From assembly GCA_014084085.1 (NCBI GenBank), contig NPFB01000110.1:37656-101655 (forward strand): a stretch of DNA of 64,000 nt. Direction: 5' to 3'. Positions 3,477 through 47,815 of the stretch are shown here, piece after piece. Under the pieces are notes generated by a model. That model was not told the DNA's origin and did no database searches. It worked only from the letters and a program-made list of their open reading frames with translations. Source of the stretch: Hondaea fermentalgiana. Taxonomy: Eukaryota; Sar; Bigyra; Thraustochytrida; Thraustochytriidae. The position numbers and the translations under genes were made by a program. The first letter of the stretch is position 1. Each line of letters begins with the position of its first letter.

Positions 3477-4517
3477 ATGGACTACGTAGGCTATGATAGC
3501 AACGTGTTCTTGCTGGCCGTCTCGGCCGTGGCCATGGCGCGTTGTCTCGGACTGTCCCTGCTGCGTCGCAAGCCCATCGGGGTCGTCGCCGGTGCGCTGG
3601 GGGCGGTCTGCATGGCATGGCTCACCGCGACGCGACCGACGTTCCCGGTGCCAGATCCAGCCAAGGCTTCGGTGCTCATCACTGGCGCAAGCAGGGGCAT
3701 TGGCCGCGCTGTTGCAGCTGCCTATGCAGACCAAGGATTTCTGGTGTTCGCTGGTGTGCGGTCCGAGGAAGATGCTGCGAGCGTGGCCGAGACAGGCCGC
3801 ATTGTGCCCTTGATGCTGGACGTCACCAAATCCGAGCACATCACGGCTGCCAAGGAGCGCATTCTTGCTGAAAAGGACCGCAAGCTCGTCGCTGTAGTCG
3901 CGAATGCAGGCATTATTTCTGAGACCCGCCCCACCGAAATGCAAGATACGACAAACTTTGGTAAGATGATCGAGGTCAACTACCTTGGCAACGTTGACCT
4001 GGTGGGGGCGTTTGCGCCAGAGCTACGCAAGAATGGTGGACGTATCATCGCCACCAGCTCGCTACTTGCACTTGTGCGCATGCGTGGCTATACGCCCTAC
4101 ATCGCTTCAAAGGCGGCTCTCGAGGGATATCTTACTGGAATCCGACGCGACGCCATGCACATGGGCACGCCCATTTCCGTGTCCATTATGCGCCCCGGTC
4201 TCACAGACACTGATCTTGCGCGTACACTGGGCCCTGGCACTCTCGATGGGCCCGCGGATATCCACTCGCGATTGCCAAAGGACGACCCCGCAATGAAACA
4301 GTTTTTTGAGAGTATCCAGGAAAGCGCGCGCCGTGAGCTCGAGATCGCGAAAGAGAATGTCGTTCCAGTTGCTACCGTTATTCCCGCATATGTCCACGCG
4401 CTTACAGACCCGCACCCTCTTGCGTATTACTACACCACACTTCCGCACAAGATTGTGACCGGGATTCTTCATTTCATTCCGGATCACGTCGCTGACATCA
4501 TCCTTGCCCAGCTGTAA
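3477..4517 (+). CDS. Membrane-anchored short-chain dehydrogenase/reductase
   Basis: A 346-residue classical SDR that should use NAD(P)(H) to oxidise or reduce a hydroxyl/keto substrate. One or two hydrophobic segments (about residues 8-25 and 33-50) precede the Rossmann fold, suggesting ER or lipid-droplet anchoring. The cofactor motif TGASRGIG is at 69-76, NAG at 143-145, the catalytic serine at about 195, and YxxxK is intact (Y208, K212). The layout (anchor, extended substrate loop, C-terminal extension) resembles the retinol/11-beta or 17-beta hydroxysteroid and beta-hydroxybutyrate dehydrogenase branch. The substrate cannot be told from sequence. The ATG at 3477 fits a purine-rich start context (gacaagATGG). 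Confidence 0.85.
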   Translation: MDYVGYDSNVFLLAVSAVAMARCLGLSLLRRKPIGVVAGALGAVCMAWLTATRPTFPVPDPAKASVLITGASRGIGRAVAAAYADQGFLVFAGVRSEEDAASVAETGRIVPLMLDVTKSEHITAAKERILAEKDRKLVAVVANAGIISETRPTEMQDTTNFGKMIEVNYLGNVDLVGAFAPELRKNGGRIIATSSLLALVRMRGYTPYIASKAALEGYLTGIRRDAMHMGTPISVSIMRPGLTDTDLARTLGPGTLDGPADIHSRLPKDDPAMKQFFESIQESARRELEIAKENVVPVATVIPAYVHALTDPHPLAYYYTTLPHKIVTGILHFIPDHVADIILAQL

Positions 4518-14586: not shown

Positions 14587-16659
14587 ATGGGCCTCCCCGT
14601 CGAGGAGCTGACCAACCTGGACGGCCTCGAGCTCGGCGCGCAGCTGCACAGGAGTAATGAGAATGTCTGCTTTCACGCCAAGTTCCGCGGCGAACCGGCC
14701 GTGGTCAAGAGGCTCATCTTGAGCCGCGCAGACAGTCTTGACAAGTTCGAGGAAGAGGTCCGCATGCTCTTGCGCCCCGAGTACAGGGAGCACATGGTCG
14801 TGCCGCTGGCCATTGTACGGTGCCCGCCGCACTACTCGATCGTGCTGCCCCTCATGGAGAACGGGAGCTTGAGCACGATTATGGCGCGCAATGTCTTGCC
14901 CCTGGAACTCATCGTGTGCTTTGCCGTCGACGCGGCCCGCGCCCTCGCGGCCTTTCACAAGACTGGCTTTGTGCACCGTGACATCAAATCAGCCAACATT
15001 CTCGTCGACAGTGCCTGGCGCGCGCGCCTCACCGATCTAGGCTCGGTAGAACGCGCAGGCGAGCTCGACGACAACGGCCAAATCATCCGCCAAATCACCG
15101 ACACGGCACGTCTGGCGCAGCCCTCGGGCGGCTTTCACAAGTCCATCATGGATGGCACAACACTCGGGTACACCGCGCCCGAAGTCCTGCGCAACAGCCC
15201 AGCCATCCAGGCCTCGGACGTGTACGGTCTTGGTATGACTTTTGCCGAAATGCTCACGGGCACGCCTCCGTATGTTGGCATGGAAAAGGAGGATGCCGAT
15301 ATGCACACCGTGATGGACGCCTCGTACTCTGAGCATGCCCTTATCATGGCCATCTGCATGGACCATCTTCGCCCTGGTCTGGTGACGGTTTCCGAAAAGC
15401 CTGGCATGCCCGTCGAACTCATTGACCTCATCCGTGAAATGTGGCACCCTAACATTCTCACGCGGCCTACCGCTGCCGCCGTCGTGGAGCGTCTCGAGGC
15501 CATTGCCACGCGCGCCGGCTTTGACCTTTCCTCTGACAACGCCCGTCAAGAGTACGCTCGCCACGTCGAGGAGGTAAAGCAGGACGGCGGTCAGCAAGGT
15601 GTCAATGCCAAGCTCATGGCCGAAGCCATGGGCATGGCTCCGCCTCCTGCTGGCGCACAGCAGGGCTACCAAGTCCACGACGTCCCGACTGTGCCGCTGA
15701 CAAACCCGAACGGCATGGATGTCGACGAAGACGTGGAAATGACGTCTGGCGATGCGTCGGTCTCCGGGGCCGGCAACCAGGTCAAGTCGAATTCCTCCGT
15801 TCTCGTCGGTGCCTTTGCTACCTCGGGGCGCCGCGGCGCTGACAAAATGGAGGACCGCCATGCGGTCTCTCACTACTCTTTGGGCGATGGTCGAGGCGAG
15901 CTTAGCGTGATTACCGTCTTTGATGGTCACGGTGGACCCACGTGCTCGCACTTCGCCAACACCTACTTGGGCCCTCGCATCGGGGCCCAGCTCGCAATGG
16001 GCAACTTCCCGGACGAGGCCGCGCGCAGAGCGACCGTGGCGCGGGAATTCGTTGCCGTCGATGAAGCCTTCCGCAAGGGCCCCATTGCAGACAAGTCGGG
16101 CTGCACGGCGCTGGCTGCCGTGGTTTGGCAGCCTGAAAAGGCCGCACGGCCGAATCACATTCGTATGCTTTTTGCCAATGCGGGTGATTGCCGTGCGGTC
16201 CTTTGCCGTACCGAGAATGGTGTCGATCGCGCAGTCCGTCTCACGCAAGACCATAACGCCGCGAGCGCAAGCGAGCAGGATCGCATCCGCGCTGCGGGCG
16301 GCACGATCCAAATGACTCGTGATGGCAAGCTGCGCGTCAATGGTCACATTCAGGTAACGCGAGCGCTAGGCGACGCGGCCATGAAGCCGTATGGTGTCAC
16401 AGCGGAGCCCGAAATCTTCGAGTACAGCTTTGACGCCACCGGAGGCGACGACTTTATCATTCTCGCCACCGACGGCGTCTGGGATACCCTTTCCGATGAA
16501 GCAGCTTGCCTTGCTGTGCGCAATACTGCCAAGGAGTGTGGTCTTGCTGCCAAGCGGATCGGCGGTGACGCGCTGAATGCAGGAAGTTCTGATAACATCT
16601 CGGTGGTGGTGATTTTCCTCAAGAACTTCAACCAACACCAAGACGTGATCTATGTTTAG
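14587..16659 (+). CDS. Protein kinase-PP2C phosphatase fusion
   Basis: A 690-residue protein with two opposing activities. The N-terminal kinase domain (about 12-310) has the lysine in AVVKRL (K41), HRDIKSAN (130-137), DLG for DFG (150-152), YTAPE (195-199) and DVYGLGMTFAEML. The glycine-rich loop is not recognisable (LGAQLHRSNENV), so ATP binding may be unusual. The C-terminal PP2C domain (about 403-682) keeps the metal-binding residues: MEDRH (421-425), VFDGHGG (444-450), FANAGDCRAVL, ATDGVWD (627-633) and SSDNISVVV. Plants have a family with the same order (protein kinase and PP2C-like domain-containing protein), so the fusion itself is known; its target is not. Kinase best fits a TKL/plant-like serine/threonine type. 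The start is set by the only ATG after the purine tract. Confidence 0.92.
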   Translation: MGLPVEELTNLDGLELGAQLHRSNENVCFHAKFRGEPAVVKRLILSRADSLDKFEEEVRMLLRPEYREHMVVPLAIVRCPPHYSIVLPLMENGSLSTIMARNVLPLELIVCFAVDAARALAAFHKTGFVHRDIKSANILVDSAWRARLTDLGSVERAGELDDNGQIIRQITDTARLAQPSGGFHKSIMDGTTLGYTAPEVLRNSPAIQASDVYGLGMTFAEMLTGTPPYVGMEKEDADMHTVMDASYSEHALIMAICMDHLRPGLVTVSEKPGMPVELIDLIREMWHPNILTRPTAAAVVERLEAIATRAGFDLSSDNARQEYARHVEEVKQDGGQQGVNAKLMAEAMGMAPPPAGAQQGYQVHDVPTVPLTNPNGMDVDEDVEMTSGDASVSGAGNQVKSNSSVLVGAFATSGRRGADKMEDRHAVSHYSLGDGRGELSVITVFDGHGGPTCSHFANTYLGPRIGAQLAMGNFPDEAARRATVAREFVAVDEAFRKGPIADKSGCTALAAVVWQPEKAARPNHIRMLFANAGDCRAVLCRTENGVDRAVRLTQDHNAASASEQDRIRAAGGTIQMTRDGKLRVNGHIQVTRALGDAAMKPYGVTAEPEIFEYSFDATGGDDFIILATDGVWDTLSDEAACLAVRNTAKECGLAAKRIGGDALNAGSSDNISVVVIFLKNFNQHQDVIYV

Positions 16660-41091: not shown

Positions 41092-43032
41092 ATGGACGCC
41101 GACATGATGGACGCGGACAGCGACAACAACTACAACAATACGACGGGAGCCAAGCGCGCGGCGCCTGCCAGCGCGCTCGAAGACGAAGGCACCTCGCAAG
41201 GTGAAAACAGCGTCCCGAGAAGCGACGATGCGGACAGAACAGGTGCGCTTCGCGCAGAGACGGCGCCGCCGTCTCCAGCACCCTCTCCTGCGCCTTCGAC
41301 AGCGTCCTTGGCAGCAGCCTCGACAACGTCTTTGGCAGCTCAATCCACGCAAGACGACGATCCGGGTGAGGTGGAGGCAAAGCGGAGACGCGGAGACCCC
41401 GTCGTGCTTGCTCGTACTGACTCACAGGGCGGCGACCAGGACCTGATGATTATGGGCCAACCTCCAGTTATGGATGCAGGAGGGGGCAATCGTTCACCAG
41501 GCAGCAGCACGAGCAGTCGCGCAGGTGCAAATCTCGATCGTGGGGCTGATGGCAAAAGTGCACAAGGTGCAAACGCCGAGCCTACTGACGAGCTTTTGCA
41601 AGAGGTGGCCAATCAATTCTCAACCTTGCTAGATCGCGTCGAAATGCGCTGGCTGCTTGGGATCAAGACGATGATGGCGTCTCTGCGCACTCTTTTGGAG
41701 CGCGCCCGCAGCGGCGGACGCCGGGTAATTCGCGTGGATGACTTGCGCTCTACTTGCTTCGAGACTCATTTTGGGACGGTCCTCCGCCTGCTCATGGCGA
41801 TTGGGTGGCGGCCTTCCATGTCAAACATGCATGAAATCGAATTTGATGGGCAGCCCGCACGACTTCACGACGGAAGAAGCGCCGTAGACGCTGCGCTCGG
41901 TATTGTGGGGTGGATCGAAGACTGCGTGCGGCTGCGTACCGAGCCCGAGACGAGCTCTCTTTTTGCATCTTCTGCGACCAGCATGACGATGCGCGTGTAC
42001 ATTGACAAGCGTAGGCGGTCCGTCATATTTCATTTGCCCAGTTCTGCCACGGTGCAGAATCTCTTTGACGCAGTAATTGCCAAGAACCCAGTGGCCTTGC
42101 AACGCAAAAGGTTTGTTCTGTCCATGGCAGCTTTTCAGCCCGCGCATCTCCGGCGCAGTGCGGACGGAGCTCGCACGCTACGGGACGCTGGTGCGCACAA
42201 CGGAACGGTTTTGGTCGCTCAGGAGCCTGTGCGTATGCAGCACGATCCTAATGCCTCGGACGCAGGGCAACCTTTGTCAGAGGTGCTTCAGTTACGCGTG
42301 CCGGAGAGGCTCGCAGAAGATCGTTTCATGATGCAACATGAGGACGTGGCTGAGCAGGTGCGCGTGTATGTCGCGCGTGGGCTGCCCGTGAGCCAAGAAG
42401 CCATCAAGCAAATGAGCCCTGTGCGACAGCCTCACGCTCCAGTTATTCTCGTGCGGAACTATTGCAGAGACGGCGGTCGGGCCATCTTTGAAGCCATTTA
42501 CGCATCAACGCACCTTTGCAGGATGGCGCCGCTACTTCAAATTGGCGATGGTCTGCGCATGAGTTTCCCCGCGTTTTCGATGCCACTGCACGCCGACTCG
42601 TGGACAGCTCACTTTGATGCCTCATTGGCAGCGGCGTACGAAGCGCTCGAGCGCAGCGCGAGCGCTTCAGCCGAAGATAAAAACGCTGGCAAACGCATGC
42701 TCGAGGAGTGTGGGTCCGCCCCCACGGCTGGGCGAGAGGCTCAATTACAGTGCTTTGTGCACGGTTGCGCGGAGGAGCCGCGACCGGTGCTTAACAATTC
42801 GTGCAAGACGCTTATTAGCGTGGGCGAGGACGCTATTGTAATCATCAATGGGGCGCCTGTCGTCATGAGGAGTGGCGACGCGCTTGTCTTTCGAGGAACG
42901 CCCGCGCACCCTATTCATCATGGCGTTGCTGAGGTTGCAATTGGCACGCAGCCTGAGTGGGCGTCCATATATCCCTTCATGTACGGAGCTCGTTTCGTCG
43001 TGGACCTCGCACAGTTTCCGCAAGCTGCCTAA
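41092..43032 (+). CDS. PUB domain - ubiquitin-like domain - AlkB-like dioxygenase protein
   Basis: 646 residues, single exon. After a disordered leader come: a PUB-like helical domain at about 165-282 (SLRTLLERARSGGRRVIRVDD, THFGTVLRLLMAIGWRP), as in PNGase and UBX proteins that bind p97/VCP; a ubiquitin-like or UBX-type fold at about 298-378 (MRVYIDKRRRSVIFHLPSSA ... ARTLRDAGAHNGTVLVAQE); and a C-terminal AlkB-like 2-oxoglutarate/Fe(II) dioxygenase region at about 400-646. For the last I see HxD (H500, D502), the double-psi-like strand AIVIINGAP, VVMRSGDALVFRG, the distal histidine in HPIHHG (H609/H610) and an arginine at 634. The AlkB core is interrupted by an Ala/Glu-rich insert. Substrate unknown: nucleic acid or protein. 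PUB and Ubl calls rest on pattern only. Confidence 0.62.
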   Translation: MDADMMDADSDNNYNNTTGAKRAAPASALEDEGTSQGENSVPRSDDADRTGALRAETAPPSPAPSPAPSTASLAAASTTSLAAQSTQDDDPGEVEAKRRRGDPVVLARTDSQGGDQDLMIMGQPPVMDAGGGNRSPGSSTSSRAGANLDRGADGKSAQGANAEPTDELLQEVANQFSTLLDRVEMRWLLGIKTMMASLRTLLERARSGGRRVIRVDDLRSTCFETHFGTVLRLLMAIGWRPSMSNMHEIEFDGQPARLHDGRSAVDAALGIVGWIEDCVRLRTEPETSSLFASSATSMTMRVYIDKRRRSVIFHLPSSATVQNLFDAVIAKNPVALQRKRFVLSMAAFQPAHLRRSADGARTLRDAGAHNGTVLVAQEPVRMQHDPNASDAGQPLSEVLQLRVPERLAEDRFMMQHEDVAEQVRVYVARGLPVSQEAIKQMSPVRQPHAPVILVRNYCRDGGRAIFEAIYASTHLCRMAPLLQIGDGLRMSFPAFSMPLHADSWTAHFDASLAAAYEALERSASASAEDKNAGKRMLEECGSAPTAGREAQLQCFVHGCAEEPRPVLNNSCKTLISVGEDAIVIINGAPVVMRSGDALVFRGTPAHPIHHGVAEVAIGTQPEWASIYPFMYGARFVVDLAQFPQAA

Positions 43033-43271: not shown

Positions 43272-45170
43272 CTAAGGTGACTGGCTCGAAGTCTCGTTGC
43301 CGAAAAGGTTTGCAGCGTACTTGCGCACATACATGTCCGCAGACTCCACCTTATCCCAGTCAATTGGAAGACGCGTGAATTCGCGCCGCGCGAGCGGAGT
43401 GTCCAGAAGGGGCGGCTCGTCCAGCACAACTTTCACAGTAGCTTCGCGACCGAGCTCCTTGACACCTTCGGCCAAGCGAGTCGTCCAAGCACGCACGGCT
43501 TGCATTGATTTAATATAGGCTTGCTCCTTTTCGGTGCCACTCACACGAGCGGTAAAGTCGGGCTTGCCCGCATCGGAACCGACGACGACAATATACTTGA
43601 GCAGGTCCTTGACGGAGGAAGCACCATCTGCGAGCTCTGTAGTCTCGGGGCGCCCGGTGACGTCGATCTTGAAGGCGTCCGGACCGAGGGTGCGTGGGGT
43701 GTCCTCAGTCGAACGCAAAAGATCACTACGCTCGCTGGGATGAAAGCGGAGGAACCTTAACGGCGCATCGATTTGCTGTGCTAGGCACTTTGTGACCTTG
43801 ACCTTGCTTGCAAGATTTTGCTCGAGCAGCAGCGAAGGAGACTCTTGCAGAGCAGCGCCATCGTCCCAGGCAAAGGTGCCCGCAGCGAGAATAAGAGCGT
43901 CAAGCGCCGGAACACGAGACCGCATGGCTACGGTGAGTCTCGCGACCTCGGGCCACGACGAACAGTCCGCTTCAGTCGTAAAGACGGCAGGCTCGACCTT
44001 GGAAGACGTGCAGGACTTTTGCAAAGGCTCGACTGCGCGGACCAGGGCCGCAGCTGCGTCCAAGCGCCCGGAGTCACGAGCTACCATCACGACAGACCAT
44101 CCTCGCGTGCGCATCTCCTTTGCCCATGCAAGACCGATACCGGACGAAGCGCCCGTAACAAGAGCGACGCGCGGTTTTTGTTCATGAAAGAGCCAGCTGG
44201 CGGCCTTGTCTCGATATGAGTCAATGTCAATCTTGGCGTTTCGTAGTTTTTGCTTCGTGGCAGCATTGAGTCGATTAGGCACGTTAAGGTCGAGCGCATA
44301 GTCCCAGCTCATGGAGCCGCGATGATCCCGAATAATGTTGCACACCTGATCGACGGTGAGCACCTTTTTCCCATCGTGACGCTCTCGCTGCGAAAAGTAT
44401 TCCGTCATGGGGAGTTTGGCGGTGGGAAAGCCGAGGTGGGATGCCTTTGCCTGGGCAGCGCCCTTTTGTTTGTTGCGATCGATCAGACCACCAATAATGT
44501 ACGCTTTGGTTGGATCGAATGCGGTAATTGTCTCTGTGGCGTCTGCGGACAGATAGACGGCATTTCCCGGGGTGTAGAGCTCGTGAAAGGGTTCGCTACG
44601 TATCGAAAAGTCTCCGATTTCTGCCCATGATGCACCGCCTCCCTGACGCTCAGCAAGCTCCTTTTGCAGCTCAGACGACATTCCTGCAAGCACAAGGCAG
44701 CTTGGTCGCCATGTCGCCCGATTTTGTCCGTAGGTACCGCTGATCTGATGGTACAAGCTCCGGCGAAGGTCACGAGGCATGTCCCCGGCAAATTCCATGT
44801 CCACGACGATGGTCGGGTTTGACTGCGCAAGCTTGGGCACAGCCTGTTTGGCATCTTTGCGGAGCGCTTGGTCGGCGCTTCGCGGATTGCTGCCCCGTGC
44901 AATAGCTTCTGCTTTGTTACGCTTGGGCGCTTGCCTGGGTTGATCGGGCGTCTTCGCCCTCTTGCGCCGTGCGATTTCCGTCCGCACGAGAGCAGCTACC
45001 TTGCGCTTGAGCGCGTTTTTGGACTCCTTGTCGGCATACTGCTCCAGAAGCGCTTTGTTTTTTTCCTCCACAAAGGCCCGCACGGCGGCGTACTCTTCGC
45101 GACGCCGCTGTTCGGCCTCGTCCACTGGCTGGTGGTGGCGGTCCTGCTCTTCGCCGCCACTACCGTCCAT
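43272..45170 (-). CDS. TRM10-type tRNA (guanine-9 N1) methyltransferase fused to a degenerate SDR
   Basis: 632 residues in one uninterrupted frame. A coiled, basic N-terminus (about 20-115, ARRKRAKTP, APKRNK) is typical of TRM10. The SPOUT domain (about 118-300) has TIVVDMEFAGDM, SGTYGQNRATWRPSCLVLAG, the SAM-site knot KAYIIGGLIDRNKQKG with conserved Asp231, TAKLPMTEYF and KKVLTVDQVCNII. From about 331 a Rossmann fold begins: RVALVTGASSGIGLAWAKEMR (TGASSGIG 339-346), LILAAG for NNAG (427-431), N452, GSDAG (531-535), and Y552 followed by S555 and M556 where catalytic lysine should stand. TRM10 methylates N1 of G9 (or A9) in tRNA. In animal mitochondria MRPP1 (TRM10) needs the SDR MRPP2. No mitochondrial presequence is evident; the N-terminus is acidic. 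It is divergent from the DHX35-like gene. Confidence 0.85.
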   Translation of the reverse strand: MDGSGGEEQDRHHQPVDEAEQRRREEYAAVRAFVEEKNKALLEQYADKESKNALKRKVAALVRTEIARRKRAKTPDQPRQAPKRNKAEAIARGSNPRSADQALRKDAKQAVPKLAQSNPTIVVDMEFAGDMPRDLRRSLYHQISGTYGQNRATWRPSCLVLAGMSSELQKELAERQGGGASWAEIGDFSIRSEPFHELYTPGNAVYLSADATETITAFDPTKAYIIGGLIDRNKQKGAAQAKASHLGFPTAKLPMTEYFSQRERHDGKKVLTVDQVCNIIRDHRGSMSWDYALDLNVPNRLNAATKQKLRNAKIDIDSYRDKAASWLFHEQKPRVALVTGASSGIGLAWAKEMRTRGWSVVMVARDSGRLDAAAALVRAVEPLQKSCTSSKVEPAVFTTEADCSSWPEVARLTVAMRSRVPALDALILAAGTFAWDDGAALQESPSLLLEQNLASKVKVTKCLAQQIDAPLRFLRFHPSERSDLLRSTEDTPRTLGPDAFKIDVTGRPETTELADGASSVKDLLKYIVVVGSDAGKPDFTARVSGTEKEQAYIKSMQAVRAWTTRLAEGVKELGREATVKVVLDEPPLLDTPLARREFTRLPIDWDKVESADMYVRKYAANLFGNETSSQSP

Positions 45171-45607: not shown

Positions 45608-47815
45608 ATGGAGCTCCCCGACGACCAAGACGTGAGCGAGGGCCTCGTGTTACTCGCGCCTGGCGGCAAGGACAAGGAAAGGAAGCATAAAAAGAGCAAA
45701 AAGGACAAAAAGGATAAAAAGGATAGGAGGAAACACAAACATCGTCGTGGCAAACATGAAGCCAACGACAGCAGCGACGATGCTCTCGACCAGCGCGGTG
45801 GCAAGAAGCGCGCACGCAATGATGCCAGGTCCACCGAATATAAAGGGACGCGTCTAAGACCTGAGGACCTGGTGAACGTGCTGAGTAGCTTTGCGGCGGT
45901 CGTAGGTCTCGGAGCTCGGGATCATGCGTGCAAGTTATTCCTCCGTGCTGTAATGCGTGACCCTGCGCAACAAGGACGCACCGTGGCGTGCACGTGGCCG
46001 GAACCCCTTCAAGCGCGAAACGCTGCATTCGATTTGCAGTGTGCCGCGTACGTTGAGCCCTTTGAGCGACGAAAGCTGGACAAGTATGGGAACTCCCGGG
46101 TGACGGCCTTTAATGCATGCATGTTGATCCAGGAGACATTCCGCGACCCGCTTCTGCAGCGATTCTCGCTTGTTGTCATTGATGATTTTCAACAGCGAGA
46201 CGTGCACGCAGATATCTTGCTCAGTCTTCTTGTCAAGATCCAGGCGAGGAGGCCAGAGCTGCGAATTCTCGTCTTTGCGTGCACAGAAGCAAGCGCCGAG
46301 GTCGCGGCCTCATACCTTCGTCAAACGCTAGCGTCGAGAAGTGGGCTTCTCGACGTGCGGCCGCCAAGACTCGATCGAACTTTCCAGCAGCGTCTCATGT
46401 ACCTGCAAACTGCGACTTTGGACTATCTACGCGAGTGCGTGGATCTTGTGGTGTTGTTGCACACGGAGCAATCAATGTCTGCAGGTAACATCCTCGTGTT
46501 TCTACCCTCGAACCGAAGCGTCAATGCGTTTATAGAACAAATGAACCATCAGCAAGGGTGTTCCAATCTCGACGTGGTTCCTTGGAGTTTGGGTTTCCAA
46601 CGCGGCGTCGCGCAAGGATACAGAAGTTGCACAGTTATATTCTCTGCACAAGAGTCTCTCTTCTTCCAGACAGCGACAGCGTCTCGAGAGGTCACCATGG
46701 TTGTGGACTCAATGCTTGCCGAGCGAAAGGTGGTGGATTGCGACACTGGTGTCGAGGATTACGGCGTTGTGGCGGTGATGCGCGAGGAGGCCGAACAGCG
46801 CGCGCAGTGCTCGCAGGATTTCGTTTTTCGCCTGTGCACTGAGCAAGCCGCCTCGGATCTCGTCATGGAAGAGGGGTCGCATACTGGGGCGGAAGTCACG
46901 CGAGCCAATCTCAGCACCTTGTGTCTGCAATTGAAGCGACTTCATGTGCGTGACCTGGTTCGCTTTCCGTATGTAACGGCGCCACCCGCTCGAGCCATGA
47001 CGCGAGCCCTTGATGAGCTTCATGCTCTTGAGGCCATTGACGACGATGGCGAATTAAGCACAATCGGTGCACGCATGGTGCGTTTTTTGCCCTTGAATCC
47101 AGCGTTGAGTCGGCTGCTGGTGCTTTCCCTGGAGTTTGGGTGCTCGGAGGAGGCTTTAACGATTGCTGCAATGCTTGAGACACTCGAGCACGCGAGTCTG
47201 TTCATGCGCGGTACGTCTGCCTTGTCATTGAAGGCAACTGACGCCGTGCGTGCTCTGGGCGCGCGGGAGGGTGATCTGGTCATGTACGTGAACATTTACA
47301 ATAACTTTGTTATGGCCGCGAACCGTACGACGTGGTGCGAGGCCATGGGGATCAAATTGCACACATTGAAACGGTGTCATTCGATTCGAAAGGTACTTGA
47401 GAAGGAATTGGTCCTACTTGCACAAGAAGCAAAGGTTCAAGTGTTGTCGTGCTGCGAAGATACGAACTCGTTGGTGCGTTGCATTTGCGGGGCTTTCTTT
47501 CTCTGTGCGGCACGACTGGATGGGAGCGGCCAGAAATACGTGACGATCGACGGGCGGACCCAATTAAGTGTTCTTTCTTCCAACGTTTTCTATCAGCAGT
47601 GCGGAGTTCCTCCGCAGTGGATTGTTATGCCCCGATTGGCGCGAAATGTTGAGAATGTTACGCGAATTGAGCCCAGCATGCTTTTAGAGTCGGCACCGCA
47701 CGTCTTTCGGGCGAGTAAACCCGTAAGCAGTCGGGATGGACAGGGTTCGTCATCGACTTCATCCTCCTCATCCGTCAACCGCATGCAGCGCCCAGCCTGG
47801 ATGGTGATGCCCTAG
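45608..47815 (+). CDS. DHX35-like DEAH helicase homologue with degenerate ATPase motifs (pseudo-helicase)
   Basis: 735 residues. A Lys/Asp-rich N-terminus (KDKKDKKDRRKHKHRRG) precedes two RecA-like folds and the HA2/OB C-terminal region of DEAH helicases. Alignment with DHX35 by eye is continuous, but the catalytic motifs are lost: motif I GxxGxGKS/T reads GLGARDHAC (100-108), motif II DEAH reads DDFQ (192-195), motif III SAT reads ACT (225-227 region), and motif VI QRAGRxGR is reduced to QRAQCS with the G/R residues deleted (about 397-402). The HA2/OB part is well kept (ALDELHALEAIDDDGELSTIG, RFLPLNPALSRLLV, VRCICGAFFLCAARL, PPQWIV). DHX35 belongs to spliceosomal C-complex-associated helicases. 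This copy probably works as a scaffold without ATP hydrolysis. Confidence 0.8.
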   Translation: MELPDDQDVSEGLVLLAPGGKDKERKHKKSKKDKKDKKDRRKHKHRRGKHEANDSSDDALDQRGGKKRARNDARSTEYKGTRLRPEDLVNVLSSFAAVVGLGARDHACKLFLRAVMRDPAQQGRTVACTWPEPLQARNAAFDLQCAAYVEPFERRKLDKYGNSRVTAFNACMLIQETFRDPLLQRFSLVVIDDFQQRDVHADILLSLLVKIQARRPELRILVFACTEASAEVAASYLRQTLASRSGLLDVRPPRLDRTFQQRLMYLQTATLDYLRECVDLVVLLHTEQSMSAGNILVFLPSNRSVNAFIEQMNHQQGCSNLDVVPWSLGFQRGVAQGYRSCTVIFSAQESLFFQTATASREVTMVVDSMLAERKVVDCDTGVEDYGVVAVMREEAEQRAQCSQDFVFRLCTEQAASDLVMEEGSHTGAEVTRANLSTLCLQLKRLHVRDLVRFPYVTAPPARAMTRALDELHALEAIDDDGELSTIGARMVRFLPLNPALSRLLVLSLEFGCSEEALTIAAMLETLEHASLFMRGTSALSLKATDAVRALGAREGDLVMYVNIYNNFVMAANRTTWCEAMGIKLHTLKRCHSIRKVLEKELVLLAQEAKVQVLSCCEDTNSLVRCICGAFFLCAARLDGSGQKYVTIDGRTQLSVLSSNVFYQQCGVPPQWIVMPRLARNVENVTRIEPSMLLESAPHVFRASKPVSSRDGQGSSSTSSSSSVNRMQRPAWMVMP

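Follow-up and report, generated by a model that had tools for sequence, protein, structure and literature searches.

One gene in the window, the whole 64,000-nucleotide stretch of DNA analyzed here, encodes a TRM10 SPOUT methyltransferase continuous with an SDR domain, and the catalytic Lys of this SDR is replaced by Met both here and in three further fusions. The TRM10 family methylates N1 of the purine at tRNA position 9. On balance, we favor the view that the protein is a TRM10-family tRNA purine-9 N1-methyltransferase whose C-terminal, Lys-less SDR serves in cis as a platform, possibly one that responds to NADP(H). Beyond the initial annotation of this DNA, the chief new finding is that all four fusions have lost this catalytic Lys, and what is new is a conserved, catalytically altered partner domain on a known methyltransferase family. 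The initial annotation knew of no described fusion of this kind; likewise, the literature searched (titles, abstract openings, and some passages, with preprints and subscription papers largely outside) gave no description of a TRM10-SDR fusion.

The fused gene and its product

The initial annotation had described one uninterrupted 632-codon frame with a TRM10 SPOUT domain followed by an SDR, and this was borne out by the open reading frame, by Pfam, and by three further fusions (Table 1). Pfam matches on the 632-codon protein were tRNA_m1G_MT at residues 139-299 and adh_short at residues 334-465, and structure prediction supported both the TRM10 SPOUT and the SDR Rossmann folds. The protein carries the knot signature Y-x-I-G-G-x-x-D seen in aligned TRM10s; Y224, I226, G227, G228, and D231 were invariant in 21 aligned TRM10 proteins, hand-picked out of 89. 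The SDR-superfamily signature, a Rossmann fold with G-x-x-x-G-x-G, was also present. Among PDB sequences, the first half matched the TRMT10A domain (4fmw, E 1.7e-20) and S. pombe Trm10 (4jwh, 2.5e-19), while its best TRMT10C match was poorer (3.8e-14). The SDR half gave weak matches to generic SDRs, the best at 3.3e-06.

Table 1. Features of the fused gene, in positions of the window
Feature	Residues	Positions	Strand	Remarks
Whole fused gene		43272..45170	minus	632 codons + stop; intron unnecessary; single stop, terminal
N-terminal helical region	1-108	44847..45170	minus	predicted helices 18-37, 39-46, 51-73, 80-91, 96-107
TRM10 SPOUT methyltransferase domain	109-300	44271..44846	minus	
SPOUT knot motif YIIGGLIDRN	224-233	44472..44501	minus	includes Asp231
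Inter-domain linker	301-332	44175..44270	minus	without internal Met
SDR (Rossmann) domain	333-632	43275..44174	minus	
Dinucleotide-binding glycine motif TGASSGIG	339-346	44133..44156	minus	G340, G344, I345, G346 invariant in 4/4 fusions
Arg after strand 2, NADP-type position	365	44076..44078	minus	invariant in 4/4 fusions; Asp in L012, L016
SDR tetrad Asn, kept	452	43815..43817	minus	invariant in 4/4 fusions
Variable low-confidence insert ahead of strand 5	471-521	43608..43760	minus	pLDDT < 50
SDR tetrad Ser, kept (GSDAG)	532	43575..43577	minus	invariant in 4/4 fusions
YIKSM: tetrad Tyr552 kept, tetrad Lys replaced by Met556	552-556	43503..43517	minus	both invariant in 4/4 fusions

The stretch between residues 287 and 353 is free of Met, and the SDR thus lacks a start of its own near the first strand. 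GC content by codon position was roughly even along the frame, with its minimum in the linker, where N302 and W326 were the two of 17 filled columns invariant in all four fusions. The N-terminal region was basic overall (+8 over 110 residues) and acidic in its first 40 residues (-4). An Rfam scan of the 64-kb window gave no match.

Several other open reading frames of the window were noted. The divergent neighbor (45608-47815, plus strand) is DEAH-type helicase-like, with HA2_C as its only Pfam match at E 1e-5 or better and ATPase motifs that look degenerate by eye. A 646-residue frame at 41092-43032 (plus) had no Pfam match at E 1e-5, and its C-terminal part looks like a 2-oxoglutarate oxygenase by eye. 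At 14587-16659 (plus), one frame combines a protein kinase domain (residues 34-301) with a PP2C phosphatase domain C-terminal to it (412-671).

Related fusions and their origin

Three protein searches yielded 89 distinct proteins including the window's own (P0001), and at least four carried both domains in precomputed Pfam assignments; more may exist. In the remaining 85 of the 89, TRM10 stood without an SDR in the same Pfam column, and most of the named ones were from fungi. The initial annotation had proposed looking for the fusion in further species, and three further sequences proved to share the TRM10-SDR architecture, with 36-57% identity to the window protein. These were P0002 (JGI; 512 residues on a 1,589-base contig, start apparently missing; 57%), P0003 (JGI and MMETSP; 569 residues, named as a transcript and labeled 'type:complete'; 40%), and P0079 (546 residues, on a 39,538-base contig; 36%). 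MMETSP is a transcriptome project. Identity among the four was 33-67% for the TRM10 halves and 38-51% for the SDR halves, so selection appears to hold both halves to a similar degree. The searches also returned P0088 from Babesia ovis, a predicted 1-deoxyxylulose-5-phosphate synthase with a TRM10 domain, which may be a gene-model merge.

The TRM10 tree comprised 63 rows: 58 of 84 unfused proteins, left after thinning by shared words, one P0088 fragment, and the four fused halves. In it, the four fusions formed one side of a branch with support of 100/100, the bootstrap not having settled; within them, P0001 and P0002 grouped at 99/97 and P0003 and P0079 at 80/43. In the SDR tree of 17 rows, the four fused SDRs again grouped at 100/100, with P0003 and P0079 paired at 96/84 and P0001 and P0002 without clear pairing. 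Long-branch warnings were raised on both trees. Since each half forms one supported group and the inner branchings are compatible, a single fusion event followed by joint descent is the simplest account of these sequences. The structure alignments comprised 21 and 17 of the 89 proteins, chosen by hand. A scan of genome contigs with the SDR half gave 34 pattern matches and no relatives, and a scan of viral contigs with the alignment of the four fusions gave 70 pattern matches and no relatives.

Loss of the catalytic lysine in a conserved pocket

In the alignment register set against YxxxK, Asn452, Ser532, and Tyr552 of the SDR tetrad were kept and Lys was Met556 in all four fusions. The Asn-Ser-Tyr-Lys tetrad of an active classical SDR is incomplete in these proteins, with a residue central to catalysis apparently gone from the fused SDR. 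The initial annotation had called the SDR complete; its Rossmann domain and glycine motif are indeed present, but the loss of Lys had gone unseen. Of nine segments chosen by hand, the one around the tetrad (residues 525-563) showed the highest conservation, with 18 of 37 filled columns invariant, which indicates that the SDR pocket is constrained rather than decaying. The corresponding figures were 32 of 77 for the SPOUT knot segment and 0 of 12 for residues 471-524. Position 456 on helix 4 was K, K, R, and K in the four proteins, and Arg560, one turn past Met556, was invariant.

The lost residue is the one that human SDR5C1 can do without in its RNA role. In the study of PMC3526285, the K172A mutant of SDR5C1 had no dehydrogenase activity, tRNA methylation and cleavage were unimpaired, and an intact NAD site was likewise dispensable for the RNA role. 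Active sites with YxxMxxxK or YxxxN are described for other SDR classes, and the YxxxM of the fusions matches none of the three types of active site described in PMC3144213.

TRM10, PRORP, and SDR genes of the same genome

The assembly around the window amounts to 36.0 Mb in 238 contigs and is eukaryotic judging from its genes. Searches with the family and with a diatom TRM10, run in six frames and exon by exon, found no second, unfused TRM10, although a strongly diverged or intron-rich copy could escape them; the fused gene appears from these searches as the only TRM10 found in the genome. A PRORP gene (L023, G000:C125:284837-285511) was found at E 2.0e-29, and its N-terminus resembles a mitochondrial leader by eye and by charge (+5 over 40 residues). 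A search of the genome for nuclear RNase P RNA gave no match, and the controls were equally silent. A PfaA-type polyketide synthase match scored 461.9 bits, below the cut-off of 1010.1; PUFA synthases mark labyrinthulids, and the match agrees with the labyrinthulid origin that the initial annotation supposed.

Twenty SDR loci of the genome (L002, L004-L022) were considered; in one of the searches behind the row counts, 19 of 74 candidates were scored. L007, L010, L019, and L021 were dropped because they yielded no ORF with the motif used for selection, and L015, L017, and L018 were dropped as lacking the glycine motif plus Y-x-x-[ASTG]-K. The 13 that were kept carry YxxxK because they were selected for it. 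A further SDR gene lies in the window itself (3477-4517, plus strand; adh_short, E 7.2e-37). L012 is a clear HSD17B10 relative (1u7t, E 2.8e-77) with an intact YSASK, and L016, of HSD17B10 type by eye, paired with it at 100/98 in the SDR tree. L012 and L016 fill the role of HSD17B10 in this genome, and the SDR half was rejected as a candidate for it.

The initial annotation had also proposed placing the SDR in a tree against HSD17B10. The best tree set the fused SDRs apart from the HSD17B10 type, and an AU test left a shared clade unrejected (p 0.085). When a profile built from the four fused SDRs was run against the genome, L012 ranked 10th and L016 15th of 15 matches; in single BLASTP searches, L012 ranked 5th from P0001, 6th from P0002, 9th from P0003, and 3rd of 10 from P0079. 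HSD17B10 was absent from the best 60 of 436 PDB sequence matches of an SDR profile built from three of the four fusions. It was also unnamed among the best 50 matches of either structure comparison, where RNase P entries were represented by the TRMT10C chain only. Asp after strand 2, a trait of HSD17B10 present in L012 and L016, denotes the NAD type; all four fusions have Arg365 there. The C-terminal SDR strand serves tetramer formation, and in the alignment this strand with its LDGA motif was present in L012 and L016 and missing from all four fusions, which makes an SDR5C1-like tetramer doubtful.

In the three fusions that include a start Met, charge counts gave no sign of a mitochondrial leader at the N-terminus: the first 20 residues were acidic in P0001 (-6) and P0079 (-3) and neutral in P0003 (0). 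Upstream of 45170 on the minus strand, no stop interrupts the frame over the 52 codons ahead of the ATG, and the part close to the ATG is rich in Ala and Arg. A non-AUG start upstream of the ATG would add a basic leader.

Alternative explanations

A chimeric assembly, or two neighboring genes read as one, is exceedingly improbable. The gene is known here from genomic DNA, but homologous fusions come from three other sources, one of them named as an MMETSP transcript, the start of the SDR has no nearby Met, and the linker residues N302 and W326 are kept in all four; an artefact of assembly or gene model was rejected given that the other fusions exist. It is also very unlikely that the protein is a covalent form of MRPP1-MRPP2, the methyltransferase subcomplex of mitochondrial RNase P, sharing descent with its animal counterpart and acting with PRORP in mitochondria. 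The two domain types are identical in kind, the genome has a PRORP with a leader-like N-terminus, the AU value of 0.085 is compatible with a clade shared with the HSD17B10 type, L012 comes as high as third of ten in the BLASTP search from P0079 alone, and the Ala/Arg-rich open frame of 52 codons allows a non-AUG start with a leader. Against such homology stand the separate HSD17B10-type genes L012 and L016 and their low ranks in the four-fusion profile (10th and 15th of 15), the Arg of the fused SDRs where the HSD17B10 type has Asp, the missing strand, a TRM10 half that scores nearer to TRMT10A and Trm10, the acidic or neutral N-termini over 20 residues, and a review that reports mitochondrial TRM10 solely in metazoans (PMC10941002). 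The likeness to MRPP1-MRPP2 proposed in the initial annotation is therefore probably one of analogy, by convergence, and homology is not supported here. Its wider point stands, in that a natural fusion in the window and three further sequences place the association of TRM10 with an SDR outside the confines of animal mitochondria, and of the two options that it offered, an association that arose twice is the better one.

The SDR half could instead retain redox activity through a substitute basic residue, for example at position 456 or Arg560, making the protein a true two-activity enzyme. In complex SDRs, Lys is swapped into the tetrad Asn position; Asn452 is kept in the fusions, hence no simple swap of this kind has taken place. 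All four proteins retain the glycine motif and three residues of the tetrad, position 456 is basic throughout, Arg560 is invariant, conservation among the nine segments peaks at 525-563, and other SDR classes manage with YxxMxxxK or YxxxN (PMC3144213). We nevertheless regard redox activity as unlikely, since YxxxM falls outside all three classes of that paper and human K172A lacked dehydrogenase activity (PMC3526285). A chance ancestral fusion, kept for stability, expression level, or a separate ligand, would leave the SDR functionally unlinked to tRNA methylation. Any functional tie between the halves is proposed from sequence, and 85 of the 89 proteins, most of the named ones fungal, have TRM10 without an SDR; however, the four sequences are divergent and yet keep both halves at similar identity, and the search of one genome turned up no TRM10 besides the fused gene, which together make an unlinked SDR quite unlikely.

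Proposed role of the SDR half

According to the proposal of an in-cis platform, the SPOUT half would methylate tRNA position 9, and the SDR half would perform no ordinary dehydrogenation. The latter would act as a structural platform on the same chain, the counterpart of what SDR5C1 provides to TRMT10C in trans. This proposal is supported by the fused gene being the only TRM10 found, by the loss of Lys in four of four fusions, by the conserved pocket, and by human K172A; the residue lost here is the very tetrad Lys that is dispensable in that mutant, which suggests a platform whose chemistry was dropped. In animals, TRMT10C needs the SDR5C1 tetramer, its adapter helix sits on a face of that tetramer, and the tetramer used in this human RNase P work was 1U7T (PMC8437803). 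A scaffolding role of SDR5C1 has been suggested (PMC10602865). Human TRMT10A and other TRM10s are described as working alone (PMC6102140), so a platform is not required for methylation as such.

The SDR half may bind NADP(H), and methylation could then follow the level of the cofactor. Such an influence is plausible because the pocket and the cofactor motifs are still conserved. Altered catalysis could account for the conserved pocket just as well. Since human SDR5C1 needs no intact NAD site, the conserved pocket here does something that the human analogue leaves unexplained. We put forward, as a tentative and rather doubtful extension, that a protist TRM10, separately from animals, acquired an SDR that became a conserved NADP(H)-binding pseudo-dehydrogenase and gates purine-9 methylation, TRM10 having recruited the SDR fold more than once for its shape or cofactor and not for catalysis. 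If so, the protein would be a tRNA methyltransferase with a built-in redox or metabolite sensor, convergent with TRMT10C-SDR5C1.

Why TRMT10C should need a dehydrogenase beside it was termed obscure and enigmatic in a 2012 paper (PMC3526285), and a 2024 review still describes the role of SDR5C1 as 'probably the least obvious' (PMC10941002). A natural single-chain TRM10-SDR without the catalytic Lys looks like an independent evolutionary experiment on this question. It suggests that what TRM10 can exploit is the SDR fold and not dehydrogenase chemistry. Truncation and assay should be simpler with a single chain than with the animal complex, which makes the question directly testable.

Comparison with known systems

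Known TRM10s, TRMT10A among them, extend only briefly at the C-terminus, by 8 to roughly 60 residues in the account of PMC9508554, whereas the extension here is an SDR of 300 residues. Like the classical SDRs (sepiapterin reductase 2bd0, gluconate 5-dehydrogenase 1vl8, 17-beta-HSD13), the fused domain has the Rossmann fold, the glycine motif, and the tetrad Asn, Ser, and Tyr; unlike them, it has YxxxM for YxxxK, a degenerate NNAG, and no DGG-type strand. HSD17B10 (SDR5C1) and the fused SDR are alike members of the SDR superfamily. The TRMT10C-SDR5C1 pair resembles the fusion in joining a TRM10 SPOUT domain to an SDR that can fulfil its RNA role without the catalytic Lys (PMC3526285). In the human protein, the adapter helix precedes the SPOUT domain (PMC8437803), whereas the SDR here comes after it. 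The animal system consists of two polypeptides and the present one of a single chain, in which the SDR is not specifically HSD17B10-like, carries the NADP-type Arg, has already lost its Lys, lacks the C-terminal strand, and bears no sign of mitochondrial targeting.
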